The notes under the pieces are model-generated. The model made no database searches. It was not told where the DNA came from and saw only the letters and a list, made by a program, of their open reading frames with translations. The position numbers and the translations under genes are program-made. A DNA stretch of 64,000 nt from Acidiluteibacter ferrifornacis (GTDB lineage: Bacteria > Bacteroidota > Bacteroidia > Flavobacteriales_E > Vicingaceae). Where the stretch lies: contig NZ_WWNE01000006.1 in NCBI RefSeq assembly GCF_009909615.1, forward strand, positions 62,001 to 126,000, given 5' to 3'. Each line of letters starts with the position of its first letter. The stretch's first letter is position 1. Below, in pieces: positions 2,157 to 39,521 of this stretch.

Positions 2157-3251
2157 TTAAAATGCCTCTCCGATGGTTAAATAAAATCCATTGGTATTTT
2201 GGCCAAATCCCATATCAAGTCGAATATTAATTTTGTCATCTTCATCTAGAGCAAACCTTATTCCTCCTCCATAGGATGGTTTGATAGATTCTAATCTAAA
2301 TTCACTAAATTCATTAGCAACTGCTGCTATTCCTCCGAAAGCTACTGCCCCTATTCTCCAAAAAAGTGGGACTCGGTATTCTCCTTGAAACACTAATAAA
2401 TTTTTATCTCTAAATCTTCCTTCGTAATAGCCCCTCATTTTCCTTCGACCACCTAATAGAGCCATTTCATTAAATGGTGGTTTCCCATACATATTTACTG
2501 CATAGGTATTCATTGCTAATACCTGATCTTTGAATATACTGATGTATTTCACATAATCTATCGAGATTTTAGTAAACTCAAAAGGACTGCCAAAATATTT
2601 GCCATTTTGAGTTAAAACCAATTCTAAATAAGTCCCTTTGGAAGGAAAGTTATAATTATCCCTAGTATCGTAGATGACAATTCCTCCTAAACTAGATACA
2701 ATTCCACCATTAGCACCCCTTACTTGTCCTTGATCCAATATTCCATTGGTTTCAACATCTCCTACATCATAATTATCAAACCAATACCGTATACCTGCAT
2801 AAACATTTTTCCGAACCAACTTCGTATAATTCAATCGAACCCTTGAGTAGTTCACTTCGTAGTTTTCTTCTGAAGTAGAATTCGTACTTGACCCTACACC
2901 CCAAAAATTATAGGTATAATCATAATAGCCAATTTCACCAAAAGAAAAATATTGATCATTCTTCCAATACAATTGAAACGGTAAATAAAACAAAGATTGT
3001 TTTTCTTGAGTATAGGCTCCACCCAATTGAAATTGCGAATTTCTAGCCGTTGGAGACTGTCCTTTAAACCGAAAAGAAAAAAATCCAACAGCACCGAATG
3101 CCCAGCGCGTTTCAGGAGTATAGTATACTACTGGAAGAGGTGTAAAATGAAATCGCTTCGTTGAGTCGGGTGTTTGATCTGACTTGTTGTCTTGCGAAAA
3201 AACTCCAAGACATAAAAGTAGTGAATACGATAAAAAGGAAAATTTCTTCAA
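2157..3251 (-). CDS. BamA/TamA-family (Omp85-type) outer-membrane beta-barrel protein
   Basis: A 364-residue protein with a Sec signal peptide (about residues 1-19, ending ...LGVFSQ). The mature part is almost all alternating beta-strand sequence rich in Tyr, Phe and Gly. It ends in Phe (TIGEAF), the C-terminal outer-membrane insertion signal. The end of the barrel (LGGRRKMRGYYEGRF, then a GIRFAL-like strand) resembles the Omp85/surface-antigen D15 barrel, whose RGY-type loop-6 motif matches the RGYYEGR here. No POTRA domains precede the barrel, so it is not BamA itself; a short BamA/TamA-like protein of unknown substrate is the best description. It stands alone between a terminator and the ubiD-like gene, 24 nt downstream of the latter. 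Confidence 0.8.
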   Translation of the reverse strand: MKKFSFLSYSLLLCLGVFSQDNKSDQTPDSTKRFHFTPLPVVYYTPETRWAFGAVGFFSFRFKGQSPTARNSQFQLGGAYTQEKQSLFYLPFQLYWKNDQYFSFGEIGYYDYTYNFWGVGSSTNSTSEENYEVNYSRVRLNYTKLVRKNVYAGIRYWFDNYDVGDVETNGILDQGQVRGANGGIVSSLGGIVIYDTRDNYNFPSKGTYLELVLTQNGKYFGSPFEFTKISIDYVKYISIFKDQVLAMNTYAVNMYGKPPFNEMALLGGRRKMRGYYEGRFRDKNLLVFQGEYRVPLFWRIGAVAFGGIAAVANEFSEFRLESIKPSYGGGIRFALDEDDKINIRLDMGFGQNTNGFYLTIGEAF

Positions 3252-3275
3252 AAGCGATCTTTTAGAGCAATGAAG

Positions 3276-5117
3276 TTAAATAATTCCATATAAAGAACCA
3301 CCCTTTTCTGCTAATCGGTCCACACTTTTTTCAACTTCTGGGTCTTTAACTAAAGGTGGGGCATGATGTGGTTTTGTTCGCGCATCAATAATGATTGCAG
3401 TTTTAGCTCCCCAATGCTTGTTCTCCATCGTTTCATTTACCCCATAAATATCATGAGATGGATTACTTTTTGTAAAAGTTTCCCAAAGAAAATTATTTAA
3501 CGTTTTAGCAGTAAAACTACTATCGTCAACAATTAGTATTAAAGGAAATTGATTCAATTCTTCATGATATAACTCAAGATACGCAGCTATTCTCCTTACT
3601 CTCCTTTTTTCTATTTCATAGCTTTCGAATGAAGCACCAGAAAAAGCAAGAACCCCTGGAATAACCGATCTAGGTGAAGCAAAATCTTCAGGAATGTTTT
3701 CAAATAACGGACAACCTTTTCCAAGTGTACGTTTCTTATCTCCTGAAGCCGCAACCACTAACTTTGAACCAGTGTTTAATCCATCACCACTATAATCTAA
3801 AGTGTCAATACTTGTTTTGGTATAGAAGTGAAAATCTCTCTGCAAGTCAATTCGTTCAAGGATTCCTATGAGAAACTCTGCCTCTTCATGAATATCCATT
3901 AAGGGGTTATCGGCTTTGTTAGCAATAAAGAGATATTTTGCTAAACTCAACTGACCTGTTCCTAAAATGTGATTTGCGATTGTCAATAGTTCCTTTGGAG
4001 CTTGATCTTTTAAATAAGGTGTATACCGCTCACTACCTATTGCAAAAAGCAGTGGGTGGACTCCTGCTGCATCTACAGCATGCACAGCATGTAACCCAGG
4101 AATTTCCTGTGGTATAGCTTCTCCAGTCATGTCATGAATTAATGCACCAAAACTCGTATCTTCTTGGGGTGGCCTTCCAACTACTGTAAATGGCCAAATA
4201 GCACCCTTGCGATGATAAACCTTTTTTACTTTCATCAACGGAAAGTCATGTTTTAAACTATAATAACCAAGGTGATCTCCAAAAGGCCCTTCAGGTTTAT
4301 TTTCATTTGGAAAGACCTCCCCAGTTATTACAAAGTCAGCTTCAGAAGAAATAGCGTAACCTTCCTTGTCATAACTATACCTAAACCTCCTAGCTCCTAA
4401 AGCACCTGCAAAAGTTAATTCTGAGATTCCCTCAGGCAGGGGCATTACAGCAGAGAAAGTATGCGCGGGAGGCCCACCCACAAAAATACTGACCTTTAAA
4501 GGCTGCCCTTTTTCATTAGCTTTGGTTTGATGCACACCAATACCACGATGCAATTGGTAGTGTAATCCTATTTCCTTATCCTGAATATAATCATTCCCAC
4601 CAAGCTGTATTCGATACATTCCCAAATTTGAATTCATAACACCAGGCTTATCAATATCTTCGCTATAAACGATAGGTAGCGTTACAAACGGACCTCCATC
4701 CATAGGCCAACATTGGATTTGAGGAAGTTTAGAAATGGAAGTTTCAAATTCTGTTACTGGGTTCTTACTAGTTTTCTTGGGAAGAGCCGTTAATGCTGTA
4801 AAAGGAACTGAAATATTTTTGATCGGATTTTTTAATGCAGAAAGCGGGTCTCCTTTTAATCGAATCAATTGTTCTACTTTAGAGATAGTATCTCTAAACA
4901 TAAATTTAGACCGTTCGACAGAACCAAATAAATTAGAAACAGCTTGAAATTGGCAGCCCTTTATATTTTCAAATAAGATGGCAGGACCATTATTCTCAAA
5001 AACTCTTAAATGTATAGCTGCCATTTCGAGATATGGGTCAACTTCTTCCTTTATTCTAATCAGATGACCATTTTTCTCTAAATCAATAATGCATTCTTGC
5101 ATGCTTTTGTAGCCCAT
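3276..5117 (-). CDS. UbiD-family decarboxylase
   Basis: A 613-residue enzyme of the UbiD family, which reversibly (de)carboxylates aromatic or unsaturated acids using prenylated FMN. The family signature PEGPFGDHLGYYS is present at about residues 276-288 and carries the conserved acid residues of the prFMN site. Other conserved blocks are NLGMYRIQ and IGVHQTKANEKG. Residues after about 500 extend beyond the roughly 490-residue E. coli UbiD, as is common in Bacteroidota homologues. The substrate cannot be assigned from sequence: menaquinone biosynthesis is possible, but no other men/mqn/ubi gene and no UbiX-type prFMN synthase gene is in the window. A TATATTTG -7 element lies 26 nt upstream of the start codon. 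Confidence 0.85.
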   Translation of the reverse strand: MGYKSMQECIIDLEKNGHLIRIKEEVDPYLEMAAIHLRVFENNGPAILFENIKGCQFQAVSNLFGSVERSKFMFRDTISKVEQLIRLKGDPLSALKNPIKNISVPFTALTALPKKTSKNPVTEFETSISKLPQIQCWPMDGGPFVTLPIVYSEDIDKPGVMNSNLGMYRIQLGGNDYIQDKEIGLHYQLHRGIGVHQTKANEKGQPLKVSIFVGGPPAHTFSAVMPLPEGISELTFAGALGARRFRYSYDKEGYAISSEADFVITGEVFPNENKPEGPFGDHLGYYSLKHDFPLMKVKKVYHRKGAIWPFTVVGRPPQEDTSFGALIHDMTGEAIPQEIPGLHAVHAVDAAGVHPLLFAIGSERYTPYLKDQAPKELLTIANHILGTGQLSLAKYLFIANKADNPLMDIHEEAEFLIGILERIDLQRDFHFYTKTSIDTLDYSGDGLNTGSKLVVAASGDKKRTLGKGCPLFENIPEDFASPRSVIPGVLAFSGASFESYEIEKRRVRRIAAYLELYHEELNQFPLILIVDDSSFTAKTLNNFLWETFTKSNPSHDIYGVNETMENKHWGAKTAIIIDARTKPHHAPPLVKDPEVEKSVDRLAEKGGSLYGII

Positions 5118-15265: not shown

Positions 15266-15784
15266 TTATCCGTTAAAAACAGTATTCAAATCAACACCTC
15301 TATGCTTAGCAACTGTATAAGCGTCACGCATCGTAGCTAGAGCTTCAATAGTAGCTTTAACTACGTTGTGAGGGTTAGAAGAACCTTTTGACTTAGCAAG
15401 TACATCAGTAACACCTACACTCTCTAAAACTGCACGCATTGCACCACCGGCAATTACCCCTGTACCATGAGCAGCAGGCTTCAAAAATATCTGAGCACCA
15501 CTATACTTTCCGTATTGTTCATGAGGAACAGTACCGTTTACAATTGGAACCTTAATTAAGTTCTTCTTTGCATCGTCGATACCTTTAGCGATTGCTTCAG
15601 TAACTTCATTAGCTTTTCCTAATCCGTGACCTACAACTCCATTTTCGTTTCCTACCACAACTATTGCAGAGAAACTAAAATGTCTACCTCCTTTAGTTAC
15701 TTTAGTAACTCTTTGAATTCCTACAAGCTTATCTTTTAATTCGATTTCGCTTGACTTTACTCTTTTTATATTCGCGTTTGCCAT
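15266..15784 (-). CDS. rpsE: 30S ribosomal protein S5
   Basis: Small-subunit protein at the mRNA entrance, involved in decoding accuracy. 172 residues with the N-terminal double-stranded-RNA-binding-like domain ([26 protein letters not shown]) and the C-terminal domain ([19 protein letters not shown]). It lies between rplR (20 nt) and rpmD. Confidence 0.99.
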
Positions 15785-34099: not shown

Positions 34100-36187
34100 A
34101 TGAAGCTAACTCTACAGCTATTCTTAACAATAGTTGCAATTCACGTATTGCAATTTCTCCCTAGCCTAGCCTTTGGTAATGTTCAAGACCCTATTCCTTT
34201 TACCACTATAATAAAGGATTTAGATATCTCGCATCAACTGTTTCACTTTGAGGACACCACCAACTCTTTAGACGTCACTTCTGTCAATCAACTATATAAA
34301 GAAGGGCATTTTAATCAAATTGACAAACCTTTTAAAAACTGGGAAAAAGAAAGTTTCAACCAATGGTTCAGACTAAAATTTCTAAATGAGGTTCCGAGTA
34401 TTCAAGATTGGATGTTGGCTGTAGAATACCCTCCGCTCGATACCGTTGAATTATATTATTTGGAAAATAACAAATGGAGTAAAATTCTTTTAGGCGGACT
34501 AACCAAAGCTTCCAACAGACGATTCAATAACAGATTTTATATATTTCCAATCAGTGTTCCTTACAAGAACATTGAGACTTTTTACCTGCGGGTAAAAACA
34601 GAAGGAGCCCTTCATCTTCCAGTGAAGGTTTATAACCCTTTCTATTTTTATGAAATAAACTTTAATCAAGAAGCCCCGTTTTTTATACTATATGGAATCA
34701 TCATCATTATGATGATTTACAATCTAATTATATACTTCTCTTTAAAAGATAAAACCTACCTCTATTACGTCTTTTTTACTGGTTCTTTATTTATATTTTT
34801 CAATTCTCTTCACGGACACTTATACCATTATGTGGTAGGAGAATTTCCCTATATTTCTAAGTTTACCAATACGATTTCGCTCTCCTTAATTGTTACAACA
34901 TCGTGCCTTTTTGCGCGGCAATTTTTTGGTCTTACCTCCAAAAATAAAATTTGGTTCTATTTAATGAATACAGGTATTGTTGTAGGGCTAATTAATATTG
35001 TCCTTACTCCTTTCCTTTCAACCGTCTCCTCTTTAATCAATGGCACCTTATTAATGCTAATATTCTCGACGATCATATTGGTATTCTCCATTAGAAGTGT
35101 AAAAAAAGGAGAATACTCTTCAACTGCTTTTCTAATCGGTTGGGTCGCATTTTATATTGGCACCTTCTGTCTATTACTTGAAAAAACAGGCTATTTGCCT
35201 TTTAATTCTATCACCTCTAACCTACCGGGAATCACTACTAGTACATTAGTTGCCCTGCTATCAATTGCATTGATTAATAAGTTTAGATTAATCAAAGAAG
35301 AAAAAGAGCGAGCACAGCTAAAAGCTTTGGAATTAGAAATTCAAACTAGTGAAAACCTAGATCGAAAAGTAAAAGAAAGAACTGTTGAATTAGAGAAACA
35401 AAAAGACATAGCCGAAACCATTAAAGAAGAACTACTCTCTAGTATCAACTATGCAAAAGGAATCCAAAAGTCGATCATGCCTCCACGCAGTGAATTGAAG
35501 AAATACTTTAAAGATGGATTTCTTTTATTTAAACCTAGAGACATTGTTAGTGGTGACTTCTATTGGTTGTATAAGACTAAAGATGATATTGTGCTGTGGA
35601 CTGTAGCCGACTCTACTGGTCACGGTGTGCCCGGAGCATTTTTAAGTATTATAGGAAATTTTCTATTGAATGAAGTAGCTGTAGACAAAGAAATCAATAC
35701 GACTAATAAAGTATTGGATTCCATGCGAAACTCTGTTATTAAAGCGTTGAGTAATAACTCTAAGCCAGACAAACAGCTGAAGGATGGAATGGACATGGTA
35801 TTTTGCGCATGGGATATGAAAACCAATCGATTGCAGTTTTCCGGTGCCAATAATCCACTCTATCTGATTCGGCAGAATGAGTTAATCGTTTATAAAACGG
35901 ATAGACAACCGGTGGGCTACCATTTAGGAGAAGCCACTCCTTTTACTGCCAGAGAAATTCAGCTAGAGAAAGGAGATAAAATCTATTTGTTCTCAGATGG
36001 CTATTACGATCAATTTGGAGGAGAAAAAGGCAAGAAGTTTAAAGTGACTAACTTTAGAAAACTCCTATTGAGCATTCAAGATAAACCAATGAGCGAGCAA
36101 CTAGACGAATTGCGAACCACTTTAGATTGGTGGATGGGAGACGAAGCTCAAATAGACGACATCTGTGTGATGGGCGTGGAGATTTAG
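34100..36187 (+). CDS. 7TM-DISM sensor with SpoIIE-type PP2C phosphatase domain
   Basis: A 695-residue signalling protein. Order of parts: signal peptide (1-about 25), extracellular 7TMR-DISMED2-like beta domain (about 40-185), seven membrane helices (about 192-400), a Lys/Glu-rich coiled coil (about 405-455), then a SpoIIE/RsbU-type PP2C domain to the end. The phosphatase metal-binding blocks are VADSTGHGVPGAF, FSDGYYDQFGG and the Asp pair in IDDICVMG. Such proteins usually dephosphorylate anti-sigma-factor antagonists; no partner gene is adjacent, so the target is unknown. It stands alone, with terminators on both sides. Confidence 0.9.
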   Translation: MKLTLQLFLTIVAIHVLQFLPSLAFGNVQDPIPFTTIIKDLDISHQLFHFEDTTNSLDVTSVNQLYKEGHFNQIDKPFKNWEKESFNQWFRLKFLNEVPSIQDWMLAVEYPPLDTVELYYLENNKWSKILLGGLTKASNRRFNNRFYIFPISVPYKNIETFYLRVKTEGALHLPVKVYNPFYFYEINFNQEAPFFILYGIIIIMMIYNLIIYFSLKDKTYLYYVFFTGSLFIFFNSLHGHLYHYVVGEFPYISKFTNTISLSLIVTTSCLFARQFFGLTSKNKIWFYLMNTGIVVGLINIVLTPFLSTVSSLINGTLLMLIFSTIILVFSIRSVKKGEYSSTAFLIGWVAFYIGTFCLLLEKTGYLPFNSITSNLPGITTSTLVALLSIALINKFRLIKEEKERAQLKALELEIQTSENLDRKVKERTVELEKQKDIAETIKEELLSSINYAKGIQKSIMPPRSELKKYFKDGFLLFKPRDIVSGDFYWLYKTKDDIVLWTVADSTGHGVPGAFLSIIGNFLLNEVAVDKEINTTNKVLDSMRNSVIKALSNNSKPDKQLKDGMDMVFCAWDMKTNRLQFSGANNPLYLIRQNELIVYKTDRQPVGYHLGEATPFTAREIQLEKGDKIYLFSDGYYDQFGGEKGKKFKVTNFRKLLLSIQDKPMSEQLDELRTTLDWWMGDEAQIDDICVMGVEI

Positions 36188-36218
36188 AAAACCCTATTTA
36201 CAGCGAGTTATCATAGAA

Positions 36219-36255
36219 AAAGAAAGGGCTTTAAATTAGTTGAAGCCCTTTCTTT
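36219..36255. terminator. Bidirectional terminator between the PP2C and T9SS genes
   Basis: A 13-bp stem (36219-36231 with 36243-36255) around AGGGCTT/AAGCCCT, with an 11-nt loop, between two convergent genes. The minus-strand side has the better T run (TTTTT), so it mainly serves the T9SS cargo gene. Confidence 0.75.
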
Positions 36256-36270
36256 CTGGGTTAGTCTAAT

Positions 36271-37248
36271 TTAATCTATTACTAAATTACCACTTTTAGT
36301 AAGCGTGGAATTACTAATCAGACGGTAAAAATAGATGCCTTGTTGCAGCTCGGTCAGTGAAATAATATGCTTTTGATGATCCCCATTTAACTGTTCCGTT
36401 AGTTGCAATTGCCCTAAAGTGTTGTACAACTCAAAGCGCCCATTTTCGTTAGAAGAAGCAGTAAATTCAACGGTAATTTGATCGTGTGCCGGATTGGGGT
36501 AAATGGAAAACTCTTCTTGTTTGTTTGCACTATTTTCTGCTACCCCTATCGAAGTAGTGATGCTATCGCAATGACCCAAATACAAATTATCAATGAAGTA
36601 GTAAGTGCCATAATAATTTGGATCCTTTCCTCCACCAACAAAAAATGTATCAATGCCCAAAGTATCGTTAAAATTACCAATAGTTAAATAGCGTTCCCCT
36701 CCGACTGCGGTATATTGAAAATTAAATTCTGTCCAATTGAGTTTATCGGTTATATAATTGGTGGGAGAAACAATCAACTGTGGCGTATAGGGTAGATTAA
36801 AATTAGATGTAGAGGATACTGCGGTATTGGACAAATAGATCCCAAGTTGACCTCTTGAGGCATGTGTCATTGAGTCAGGCAAATTAACATACAATTGCAT
36901 ACAATATGTTGAATCTTTGGTTAAATTATTTCTAAGTTTTGTTTGTATATAATCCCTCATCGAAGGTGGATTTCTAATTAACAAATACATAACAAGTCCA
37001 AAGTAAGAAGAACCGTTATAAGCATGCTGATTTCCAAAAAAATTTTGAGGGACAGTCCACTTAAACTGATTAAAAGGAGTATAATGTTCTCCAACACTAT
37101 TAAACCCACTGGGAGAAGTCCATTGTTTAGGAAATGTAAACCCCCCCCCATAACTAATCGTGTCCTCAAAACTTCCATTGGGGATTAAATTCTGTGCGGC
37201 GCAAGGCGCCACACAGAAGATAAAGATTATGATGATTAAATTTTTCAT
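36271..37248 (-). CDS. Secreted protein with T9SS type A sorting domain
   Basis: A 325-residue extracellular protein. Signal peptide (about 1-18, ...CAAQ); an N-terminal beta-rich domain (about 20-225) beginning NLIPNGSFEDT, with YFIDNLYLGHCDSI near its end; then a type A T9SS sorting domain (about 240-325) with FSIYPNPAHDQITVEF, YNTLGQL and the final SNSTLTKSGNLVID. The NGSFED start and the gross fold resemble carbohydrate-binding-like beta-sandwich domains, but the ligand is not known. The first domain is clearly paralogous to that of the protein encoded at 37698-39521. A degenerate copy of its own 3' end lies directly upstream, at 37250-37351. Confidence 0.88.
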   Translation of the reverse strand: MKNLIIIIFIFCVAPCAAQNLIPNGSFEDTISYGGGFTFPKQWTSPSGFNSVGEHYTPFNQFKWTVPQNFFGNQHAYNGSSYFGLVMYLLIRNPPSMRDYIQTKLRNNLTKDSTYCMQLYVNLPDSMTHASRGQLGIYLSNTAVSSTSNFNLPYTPQLIVSPTNYITDKLNWTEFNFQYTAVGGERYLTIGNFNDTLGIDTFFVGGGKDPNYYGTYYFIDNLYLGHCDSITTSIGVAENSANKQEEFSIYPNPAHDQITVEFTASSNENGRFELYNTLGQLQLTEQLNGDHQKHIISLTELQQGIYFYRLISNSTLTKSGNLVID

Positions 37249-37249
37249 A

Positions 37250-37351
37250 TTAGTCTACTATTAATTTGCCACTTTGAGTAAGCGTGGAATTACTAATCAG
37301 ACGATAAAAATAGACGCCTTGTTGCATGTCATTTAATTTTAATGTAACGTT
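37250..37351 (-). pseudogene. Remnant of a T9SS type A sorting domain
   Basis: On the minus strand, an open frame of 33 codons between stop codons encodes NVTLKLNDMQQGVYFYRLIS followed by NSTLTQSGKLIVD. It matches the end of the downstream T9SS protein. At DNA level 37250-37327 aligns without gaps to 36271-36348 with 9 mismatches in 78 bases. There is no start region, signal peptide or preceding domain, so this is the tail of a lost or rearranged gene. It ends 2 nt before the start codon of the next gene. Confidence 0.85.
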
Positions 37352-37697
37352 TTATTAGTTGTACTGACTTCATCCTTGTGTTCTTTTGGCTTGACCCAAA
37401 ATGAACCAAAAGATCAAGTCTTTGATTTTCCTTCTGCTGATTCCTTCCTAAAGTCTAAGACCTACGCCGGATCTCCTCAATTCTTCGGAGCTAGACGAAC
37501 TTACTAAGACTTTATTTCGAAATCCTTGAAGAAAACTCAAGGACAAATACCCTATGGCCATTTGATAAAAAACTGTTTTTTCTACTTTCAATTTTGTCAT
37601 CCAGAATATTTCGACTGCGCTCAATACAGGCTTTTTCGAGTTTACAATTTGCCACGTCCAAATAAAAGATAAAAAGGTAATGACCTCAAAAACAAAC
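37352..37697. repeat. Non-coding stretch with inverted repeats, probably repeat relics
   Basis: 346 nt with no credible gene. It holds interleaved inverted repeats: CTTTTGG (37383-37389) with CCAAAAG (37406-37412), and CTTGA (37390-37394) with TCAAG (37414-37418). A separate hairpin pairs TCCTTGA (37523-37529) with TCAAGGA (37537-37543). The section near 37608 (TTTCGACTGCGCTCAATAC) looks like the type of short dispersed intergenic sequence common in Bacteroidota. No other copy is in this window, so repeat status is inference. Confidence 0.45.
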
Positions 37698-39521
37698 CTA
37701 CCTCAACAAACTCAACGTCCCTTTATACGTTTCTCCATCGTGTGTGATGATGTAGAAATAAACAGCAGTAGCGCAGTTATTTCCATCCCATGAGGGATTG
37801 TTTTTCCAATGTGCCACTTTCATGCCCCATACATTATAAATAGTAATGTCTAATGGCAAGCCATTGGTATTTCCCAATTCCCAAGTATCATTGTTGCCAT
37901 CGCCGTTGGGGGTAAAAATGTTTGGAATAATTAACGCGCACGGTTCTACTAATACTTCTATTTTACTTCTTTCTTGCGCAACACAGCTATCTACTTCCGT
38001 TTCTATATAGAACGTTTGGTTGTTTTTTACTTTAAAGGAATAAGCAAACCCTTGAAAAAATGGGACAGTTGCTGTTTGAGAACTGTACCAATTGAGTGCA
38101 GAAATGTATTCCGGAAAATGGGGTACAATGGTTTCTGTAGTGTTTCGACAAAAACCAACTGAAGTATCTTTCAGTACAGGCGGATCATTCACTTCTACTT
38201 TTAAAGGTTCAGAATAATAATAATCACAAATTGAAAACCGATAGTAAGTCGTTTCTATTGGCTGATGGGTAGCAACAGTAGACTCATTTAGTGGAAGCCA
38301 ATCGATTTGGTTTATACTGTATTGCCATTGTGGGTCGCCTTTACTGTTTTCACTTTTTAATGCAACAGAAGTTCCAAAACAAATTAATGAATCGCTGCTA
38401 CTGATTGAACCAAGGGACAGATTATTGACAATGACTGTATCTAAAAAGTTGTTCGTAGTGTCTTCATCTGCTTTTAAGCGAGCCACTATTTTAAGTTGAT
38501 AAGACTGACCAATTATAGAAAGGTTAATTGGGTTTAAAGGGAATGAAATACTGCTGTCTTGCCCCAACAAATGGCCGTTGTGGTTAAATGAATTATTGCT
38601 TATTTCTTGCTGAAAGCTCTGTATCACATTTCCATTACCTAAAACTTCGGCAGAAATTACTAACGTATCTTTTGTAAAATCAAGGGAATCTACACCCTTA
38701 TTTTTTAAGGATAGATTGAATCCCGTATTCTTGGTATAACAAGCCGTTTCATTAAACAAAGAATTGATTGAAAGGTCTTTTTTCAAGGGAATACTATCAC
38801 AGTGGCTGAGCCACACATTATCAATGTAATAATAACTTCTTTTAAAATATAGCTCCTTGCCTCCGTTTTGCAAAGGCAATGTATCTACAAAACTATAAGG
38901 TCGAAAATTGCCTAGCGTAATAAACCGTTCACCACCTTGAGCGGTATATTGGAAGTTATATTCTATCCAGTTGACTTTATCCGTAATGTAAGTCATGGGA
39001 GAAACTATGATTTGAGGCGAATAATTCAAAACCTCTGGATTATTAGAGCTAATGGCATTATTGGAAAAGTAAATCCCCAATTGATTTCGAGAAGCCAATT
39101 GGCAAGAATCTGCCAAACTGATGTAAAATTGCAAACAATAAATACTGTCTTTTTTTAGCGTTTGTTTCAATCGGGCTTGTAAATACTCTCTTAAAACATC
39201 TGGGTTTGTTGCATACCCATTCAAGACTAATCCCATATAGGCTATACCTGTTTTCGGATATTGATAGCCAACAACATTTAAAGGCATTCCATTCGAAAAA
39301 AAACCTCCTGGCACCCCTATTTCCTTATTCTTTGGAGAGAAATAATCGGGACTTCCTTGATTGGCGGTTGTCCAATCTGTAGCTATATGATAATAATAAG
39401 GTGTCCCAGGAGGAATAGGAACAGTATCCTCAAAAGAATAATTCGGAATCAGATTTTGCCCTGAAGCATATGGGCAAAATCCAACTCCGAATAAAATAAA
39501 TATTGTGATTAATATTCTCAT
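37698..39521 (-). CDS. Secreted protein with T9SS type B (gliding-motility C-terminal) sorting domain
   Basis: A 607-residue extracellular protein. Signal peptide (about 1-21); an N-terminal domain (about 22-250) beginning NLIPNYSFEDT and ending near YYIDNVWLSHCDSI; one or two Ig/CARDB-like beta domains (about 260-370, LSLKNKGVDSLDF) and an Ig-like region (about 375-525); then a type B sorting domain (CHU_C, about 530-607) with IPNIFTPNGDGNND, YNVWGMKV and a final GTLSLLR. The N-terminal domain is paralogous to that of the neighbour at 36271-37248, but the sorting signal is of the other class. Function unknown; adhesion or polymer binding at the cell surface is a guess. Confidence 0.88.
   Translation of the reverse strand: MRILITIFILFGVGFCPYASGQNLIPNYSFEDTVPIPPGTPYYYHIATDWTTANQGSPDYFSPKNKEIGVPGGFFSNGMPLNVVGYQYPKTGIAYMGLVLNGYATNPDVLREYLQARLKQTLKKDSIYCLQFYISLADSCQLASRNQLGIYFSNNAISSNNPEVLNYSPQIIVSPMTYITDKVNWIEYNFQYTAQGGERFITLGNFRPYSFVDTLPLQNGGKELYFKRSYYYIDNVWLSHCDSIPLKKDLSINSLFNETACYTKNTGFNLSLKNKGVDSLDFTKDTLVISAEVLGNGNVIQSFQQEISNNSFNHNGHLLGQDSSISFPLNPINLSIIGQSYQLKIVARLKADEDTTNNFLDTVIVNNLSLGSISSSDSLICFGTSVALKSENSKGDPQWQYSINQIDWLPLNESTVATHQPIETTYYRFSICDYYYSEPLKVEVNDPPVLKDTSVGFCRNTTETIVPHFPEYISALNWYSSQTATVPFFQGFAYSFKVKNNQTFYIETEVDSCVAQERSKIEVLVEPCALIIPNIFTPNGDGNNDTWELGNTNGLPLDITIYNVWGMKVAHWKNNPSWDGNNCATAVYFYIITHDGETYKGTLSLLR

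Follow-up and report, generated by a model that had tools for sequence, protein, structure and literature searches.

Exchanged sorting tails and candidate scars of a lost operon partner in a dispersed family of T9SS-targeted proteins with a predicted jelly roll

Two neighbouring genes of Acidiluteibacter ferrifornacis carry one predicted binding domain under both T9SS tail classes in a single genome, with a mapped recombination breakpoint. The genes, A and B, lie on the minus strand of the window, the 64,000-nucleotide stretch of DNA analysed here. The preferred reading, with a probability of about 0.76, is that they belong to a dispersed adhesin-type family marked by scars of a former operon partner, in which C-terminal tails have been exchanged by recombination. 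Genes A and B would then carry different export-tag classes because the tag-bearing ends were exchanged. An earlier note on this DNA described the two paralogs, their differing tails and a tail remnant between them; that observation is confirmed, its interpretation is partly supported, and the history that emerges differs from the one proposed.

Gene A (36271..37248, minus strand) encodes 325 aa, with an N-terminus that is signal-peptide-like when read by eye, a jelly-roll N-domain (36553..37191, minus) and a type A T9SS tail of the operon-partner class (36271..36504, minus), whose last 77 bp are repeated at 37250-37326. Gene B (37698..39521, minus) encodes 607 aa comprising a signal peptide, an N-domain (38793..39455, minus), a middle part in which residues 246-446 match no Pfam family, an Ig_7 module (PF19081) and a type B tail. 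Over the first ~240 residues the two proteins are 44% identical (E 2e-61), a relationship far beyond generic beta-sandwich likeness and in keeping with the shared domain first described. The tail classes assigned in the earlier note also pass curated cut-offs. The C-terminus of gene A scores 48.8 bits against PF18962 (cut-off 27) and 48.6 against TIGR04183 (cut-off 23), and that of gene B, which contains the motif IPNIFTPNGDG, scores 50.8 bits against PF13585 (cut-off 27) and a marginal 38.8 against TIGR04131 (cut-off 35). Of the extra Ig-like modules that had been read into gene B, Pfam recognises one, the Ig_7, and does not recognise the others.

The shared N-domain is confidently modelled as a jelly roll. 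The AF2 model of gene A's domain has a pLDDT of 91.7 and a pTM of 0.90, and its PDB matches place it with galactose-binding-like folds of the CBM4, CBM16 and MAM type, together with HpiC1 cyclase and gingipain cleaved-adhesin jelly rolls (best Foldseek E 1.7e-6, highest Z 12.5). The likeness to these proteins lies in the predicted fold only, whereas sequence identity is ~9-19%. Profile search, suggested earlier alongside structure prediction, gave no Pfam match for gene A's domain (CBM_4_9, PF02018, and HpiC1-like, PF22825, were tested), and relatives of the domain gave weak matches to PF02018 in 7 of 44 cases and to PF22825 in 4 of 44, with a best E of 2e-4. The fold matches suggest that a binding role is likely, perhaps for glycans.

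The fragment between the two genes (37250..37351, minus) consists of 33 codons and a stop, its TAA (37250-37252) standing one base ahead of gene A's ATG. It is a genuine type A remnant, as had been claimed, although the count needs correction from 9 mismatches in 78 bp to 8 mismatches in 77 bp (89.6% identity to the 3' end of gene A). The three dispersed paralogs L002, L003 and L004 each begin directly behind an isolated type A fragment of 51-57 codons ending SGKLIIE-stop, and the A/B fragment has lost in frame 23 codons still present in those of L002 and L003. Used as a query against the whole genome, a related 56-aa tail fragment locates the A/B fragment at E 1e-6; a profile of partner tails built without sequences of the source genome locates it at E 1e-10. 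Such partner tail remains, ~33-57 codons long, stand directly before four of the five close N-domain genes of this genome.

The A/B fragment is best read as the scar of a lost operon partner because intact pairs exist in relatives, tail-only remains cluster at the end of the partner, and no partner body is found in the source genome. At G007, G016, G003 and L130 there is a pair of genes in which the N-domain gene comes second, behind a large type A-tailed protein of ~1,000-1,300 aa that overlaps it or ends within a few bases of it. The bodies of these partners are homologous to one another, and also to proteins whose genes precede N-domain genes elsewhere in Bacteroidota. Upstream of N-domain genes, the partner-tail profile matches in 27 of 34 cases within the bacterial family and in 28 of 59 elsewhere; for OmpA-type members the count is 0 of 18, and for control ORFs 28 of 480. 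Among 29 N-domain genes of the bacterial family, 14 have a partner tail without an adjacent body, retaining the last ~24-78 codons, and five have no upstream tail fragment; the 14 cases, which include three dispersed paralogs of the source genome, are not all independent. Under an even spread of breakpoints over partners of ~1,100 codons, such clustering would by estimate be very improbable, even with ten independent cases. The arrangement seen at G007, G016, G003 and L130, a partner directly upstream with its stop touching the next start, is absent from the source genome, where a search for the partner body returned only weak matches, all of them to the Ig-like repeats in one unrelated protein of 3215 aa. 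These observations point to a conserved two-gene unit across Bacteroidota, with a partner family mostly lacking a Pfam model, and the recurrent scar would be a record of such units breaking up.

The partner itself is probably a parallel beta-helix. Matches to beta-helix and to NosD families were each found in 2 of 14 members, and beta-helical enzymes head the structural matches. The assignment is called only probable because confidence in the model is medium (pLDDT 64) and the Foldseek matches are weak (best E 0.003). As a separate observation, large type A-tailed proteins reaching ~2,000 aa, with homology across Bacteroidota, lie upstream of N-domain genes at L140, L158, L172, L181, L187, L204 and other loci, and most of those scanned match no Pfam family except in the tail.

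Directly adjoining the fragment is a composite dispersed repeat (37352..37634, minus), which joins tail fragments at three loci of the source genome and matches the 3' flank of paralog L002 at 87%. The repeat occurs at ~20 places in the genome and contains a short palindrome; several copies, at C11, C16, C17, C18 and C21, are found no more than ~300 bp past the 3' end of T9SS tail genes. An isolated type A tail followed by this repeat (C21:19678-19806) was considered as a second tail swap and rejected, because complete related genes at C16 and C17 end in the sequence of which it is a decayed copy.

The N-domain family is dispersed: seven N-domain paralogs are scattered through the source genome. 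L002, L003 and L004 encode 596-597 aa from TTG starts, bear type B tails, share ~55% identity with gene A, and lie ~60 kb or farther from the locus or on another contig. The N-domain tree joins gene A to these three paralogs plus a decayed copy from the same-genus genome G001 (97/92), and pairs gene B with a gene located elsewhere in this sister species (100/100). Since their N-domains fall in separate clades and the seven paralogs are dispersed, A and B are not local duplicates, and the local duplication suggested by the earlier note is not borne out. The AU test rejects the five type B genes as a single clade on the N-domain tree (p 0.0012; for all six members of the genus, p 0.023), so the tail class and the binding domain have not descended together. 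Across the wider family in Bacteroidota, the tree shows many changes of tail class, although these labels are motif-based and some OmpA-type rows are mislabelled.

The sister species differ from the source genome in where these genes lie. Both same-genus genomes have dnaJ directly beside the ABC transporter with no copy of A or B between them, so the site in the window is new; this is the comparison with relatives called for by the earlier note. Conversely, the site corresponding to gene B's ortholog in G001 is empty in the source genome. Because each site is empty on the other side, these genes have moved between closely related species. A SpoIIE-type phosphatase gene (34100-36187) forms with A and B a block of ~5.5 kb (34100-39521) that is absent from both same-genus genomes. 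The G001 ortholog of gene B has one in-frame TAA inside its N-domain (L208 ~15308-15310), so this gene may be decaying or misread. At the L003 site of G001 (L110 ~2800-3300) there is a decayed copy in which a partial N-domain is fused to a type B tail end across a large internal deletion; checked for concerted evolution, its type B end is about equally close to all copies (19 of 42 vs 15-17 of 42).

Gene B is a mosaic. Identity to its G001 ortholog is 71% in the N-domain and 37-48% in Ig_7 and CHU_C, whereas identity to L002-L004 is 42% in the N-domain and 60-79% in the C-terminal module. A breakpoint near residue 444 gives a maximum chi-square of 89, a value reached in 0 of 1000 permutations. 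The module that follows it (37698..38189, minus), consisting of Ig_7 and CHU_C, runs on into the 3' flank, where gene B and L002 are 87% identical over 277 bp. Exchange of this module with dispersed type B paralogs is thereby demonstrated, and the proposal of sorting-module exchange between paralogs holds: gene B is mosaic, and tail classes do not follow the N-domain tree. A further event is suggested by a tandem array in G007. Copies b and c share a common junction and nearly identical flanks, yet differ at 11 of 72 positions in the tail fragment, and the copy c fragment differs once from the intact partner tail. A conversion tract that does not extend beyond the tail would explain this most simply; a search of the G007 genome for the donor of the odd fragment gave no other match.

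The tail of gene A also appears to come from outside its own N-domain family. Its last 30 residues have a mean alignment score of 73.9 with partner tails, compared with 36.2 when the tails of relatives' N-domain genes are used. On the tail tree, which is weakly supported because tails are short (30-75 aa), it groups with the source genome's own fragments (support 0.86-0.89). It would most simply have been copied from the partner tail upstream, and any partner-class tail could have been the source. Gene A may have kept type A throughout or may have regained it; either order is possible.

These strands can be joined in a provisional history. The ancestral unit would have encoded a large type A-tailed surface protein followed, start touching stop, by a jelly-roll protein with a T9SS tail. 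In the source genome the partner bodies are gone and terminal codons are left before N-domain genes, the A/B fragment being one such scar. Recombination in the tail-coding ends has reassorted sorting signals: gene B took on the Ig_7 and CHU_C end of the dispersed type B paralogs in place of its own, with the breakpoint near residue 444, and gene A would have acquired a partner-class tail, 90% identical to the scar ahead of it. A broader and rather unlikely extension is that T9SS tail-coding sequences are a recombination platform in Bacteroidota, with isolated tails and the repeats behind tail genes serving as homology for gene conversion. If true, this would allow repeated, selectable re-sorting of surface domains between the type A and type B routes.

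Other histories account for parts of these data. A local tandem duplication could have given three sister genes, the middle one lost save for its type A tail and one neighbour switched in class; the 90% identity of the fragment to gene A's tail would fit, and relatives do hold tandem arrays of N-domain genes. This scenario is improbable, since A and B fall in different clades and the site is empty in both sister species. Moreover, the fragment is of partner class and recurs before three unlinked paralogs that have no neighbouring sister gene, so that the lost third sister envisaged in the earlier note gives way to a partner tail. Inheritance without any exchange, A and B being old lineages each with its own tail, would suit N-domains that are old and diverged and a family in which tail classes vary widely in Bacteroidota. 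It is contradicted for gene B by the sharp breakpoint of a mosaic that runs into the 3' flank, and for gene A by its nesting among type B paralogs whose monophyly is rejected, and is highly improbable.

A further question is whether the tail fragments are scars or have been kept by function, as a translation-initiation or leader region, a short translated peptide or a homology platform for tail exchange. They turn up again in several genomes with a spacing of about -1 to +5 nt, and their differences are mainly synonymous (omega 0.27, p 5e-4, for L002r/L003r; 5 synonymous vs 0 nonsynonymous for 094b/094p of G007). Because copies share fragment boundaries, part of this divergence postdates isolation, which counts in favour of function. 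On the other hand, divergence inside intact partners or conversion from intact tails explains the low omega equally well, no consistent start codon is seen, the A/B fragment has lost 23 codons, and fragments are absent from 5 of 29 genes; retention by function is rather unlikely. It is scarcely probable that gene B and its paralogs lack genuine type B signals at their C-termini, leaving no real difference in sorting class. TIGR04131 is barely exceeded, L004 also passes TIGR04183 and a PorP/SprF gene is absent nearby, but PF13585 is clearly passed, the IPNIFTPNGDG motif is present, and 3 of 12 Flavobacterium johnsoniae type B substrates likewise have no linked shuttle gene (PMC12618676).

Under the preferred reading, with tail exchange by recombination, the two proteins would follow different export routes. 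The source genome encodes a T9SS (SprA, PF14349, E 1e-171) with about 110 type A and 26 type B tails. In published work PorV serves type A CTDs and PorP/SprF proteins serve type B CTDs, an unlinked PorP/SprF can be shared by orphan type B substrates, and a CTD swap alters the destination of the passenger (PMC12618676, PMC9143113, PMC10202324). The eleven PorP/SprF (PF11751) genes of the genome all lie away from gene B and from its three type B paralogs, so these four are orphan type B substrates. By analogy with this published T9SS work, the passenger of gene A would be handed to PorV and released or attached, and that of gene B to a PorP/SprF protein encoded elsewhere. Given the published CTD-class shuttles and swaps, A and B are expected at different destinations, and the F. 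johnsoniae swaps (PMC12618676) make it likely that tail exchange changed the export or anchoring route.

Gene A resembles known T9SS type A CTD proteins in exceeding the cut-offs of both PF18962 and TIGR04183, and differs from them in that its tail is like that of an operon partner rather than that of its own N-domain family in relatives. Gene B and L002-L004 resemble type B CTD proteins (PF13585 / TIGR04131) in passing PF13585. They appear to form a slightly atypical type B subfamily, because TIGR04131 is close to its cut-off and L004 passes both TIGR04131 and TIGR04183. Unlike type B proteins with PorP/SprF shuttles, gene B has no linked shuttle gene, a neighbour that this class commonly but not always has, and its C-terminal module has been exchanged among paralogs. 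No paper on natural tail-class exchange within a protein family, or on T9SS tail recombination, was found in the literature searched. The closest parallel is the set of swap experiments in F. johnsoniae, in which CTD class decides the destination of the passenger (PMC12618676). There, as here, the same passenger is joined to the other CTD class; those swaps were made in the laboratory with SprB, AmyB and RemA, whereas the exchange described here is natural and inside one protein family.
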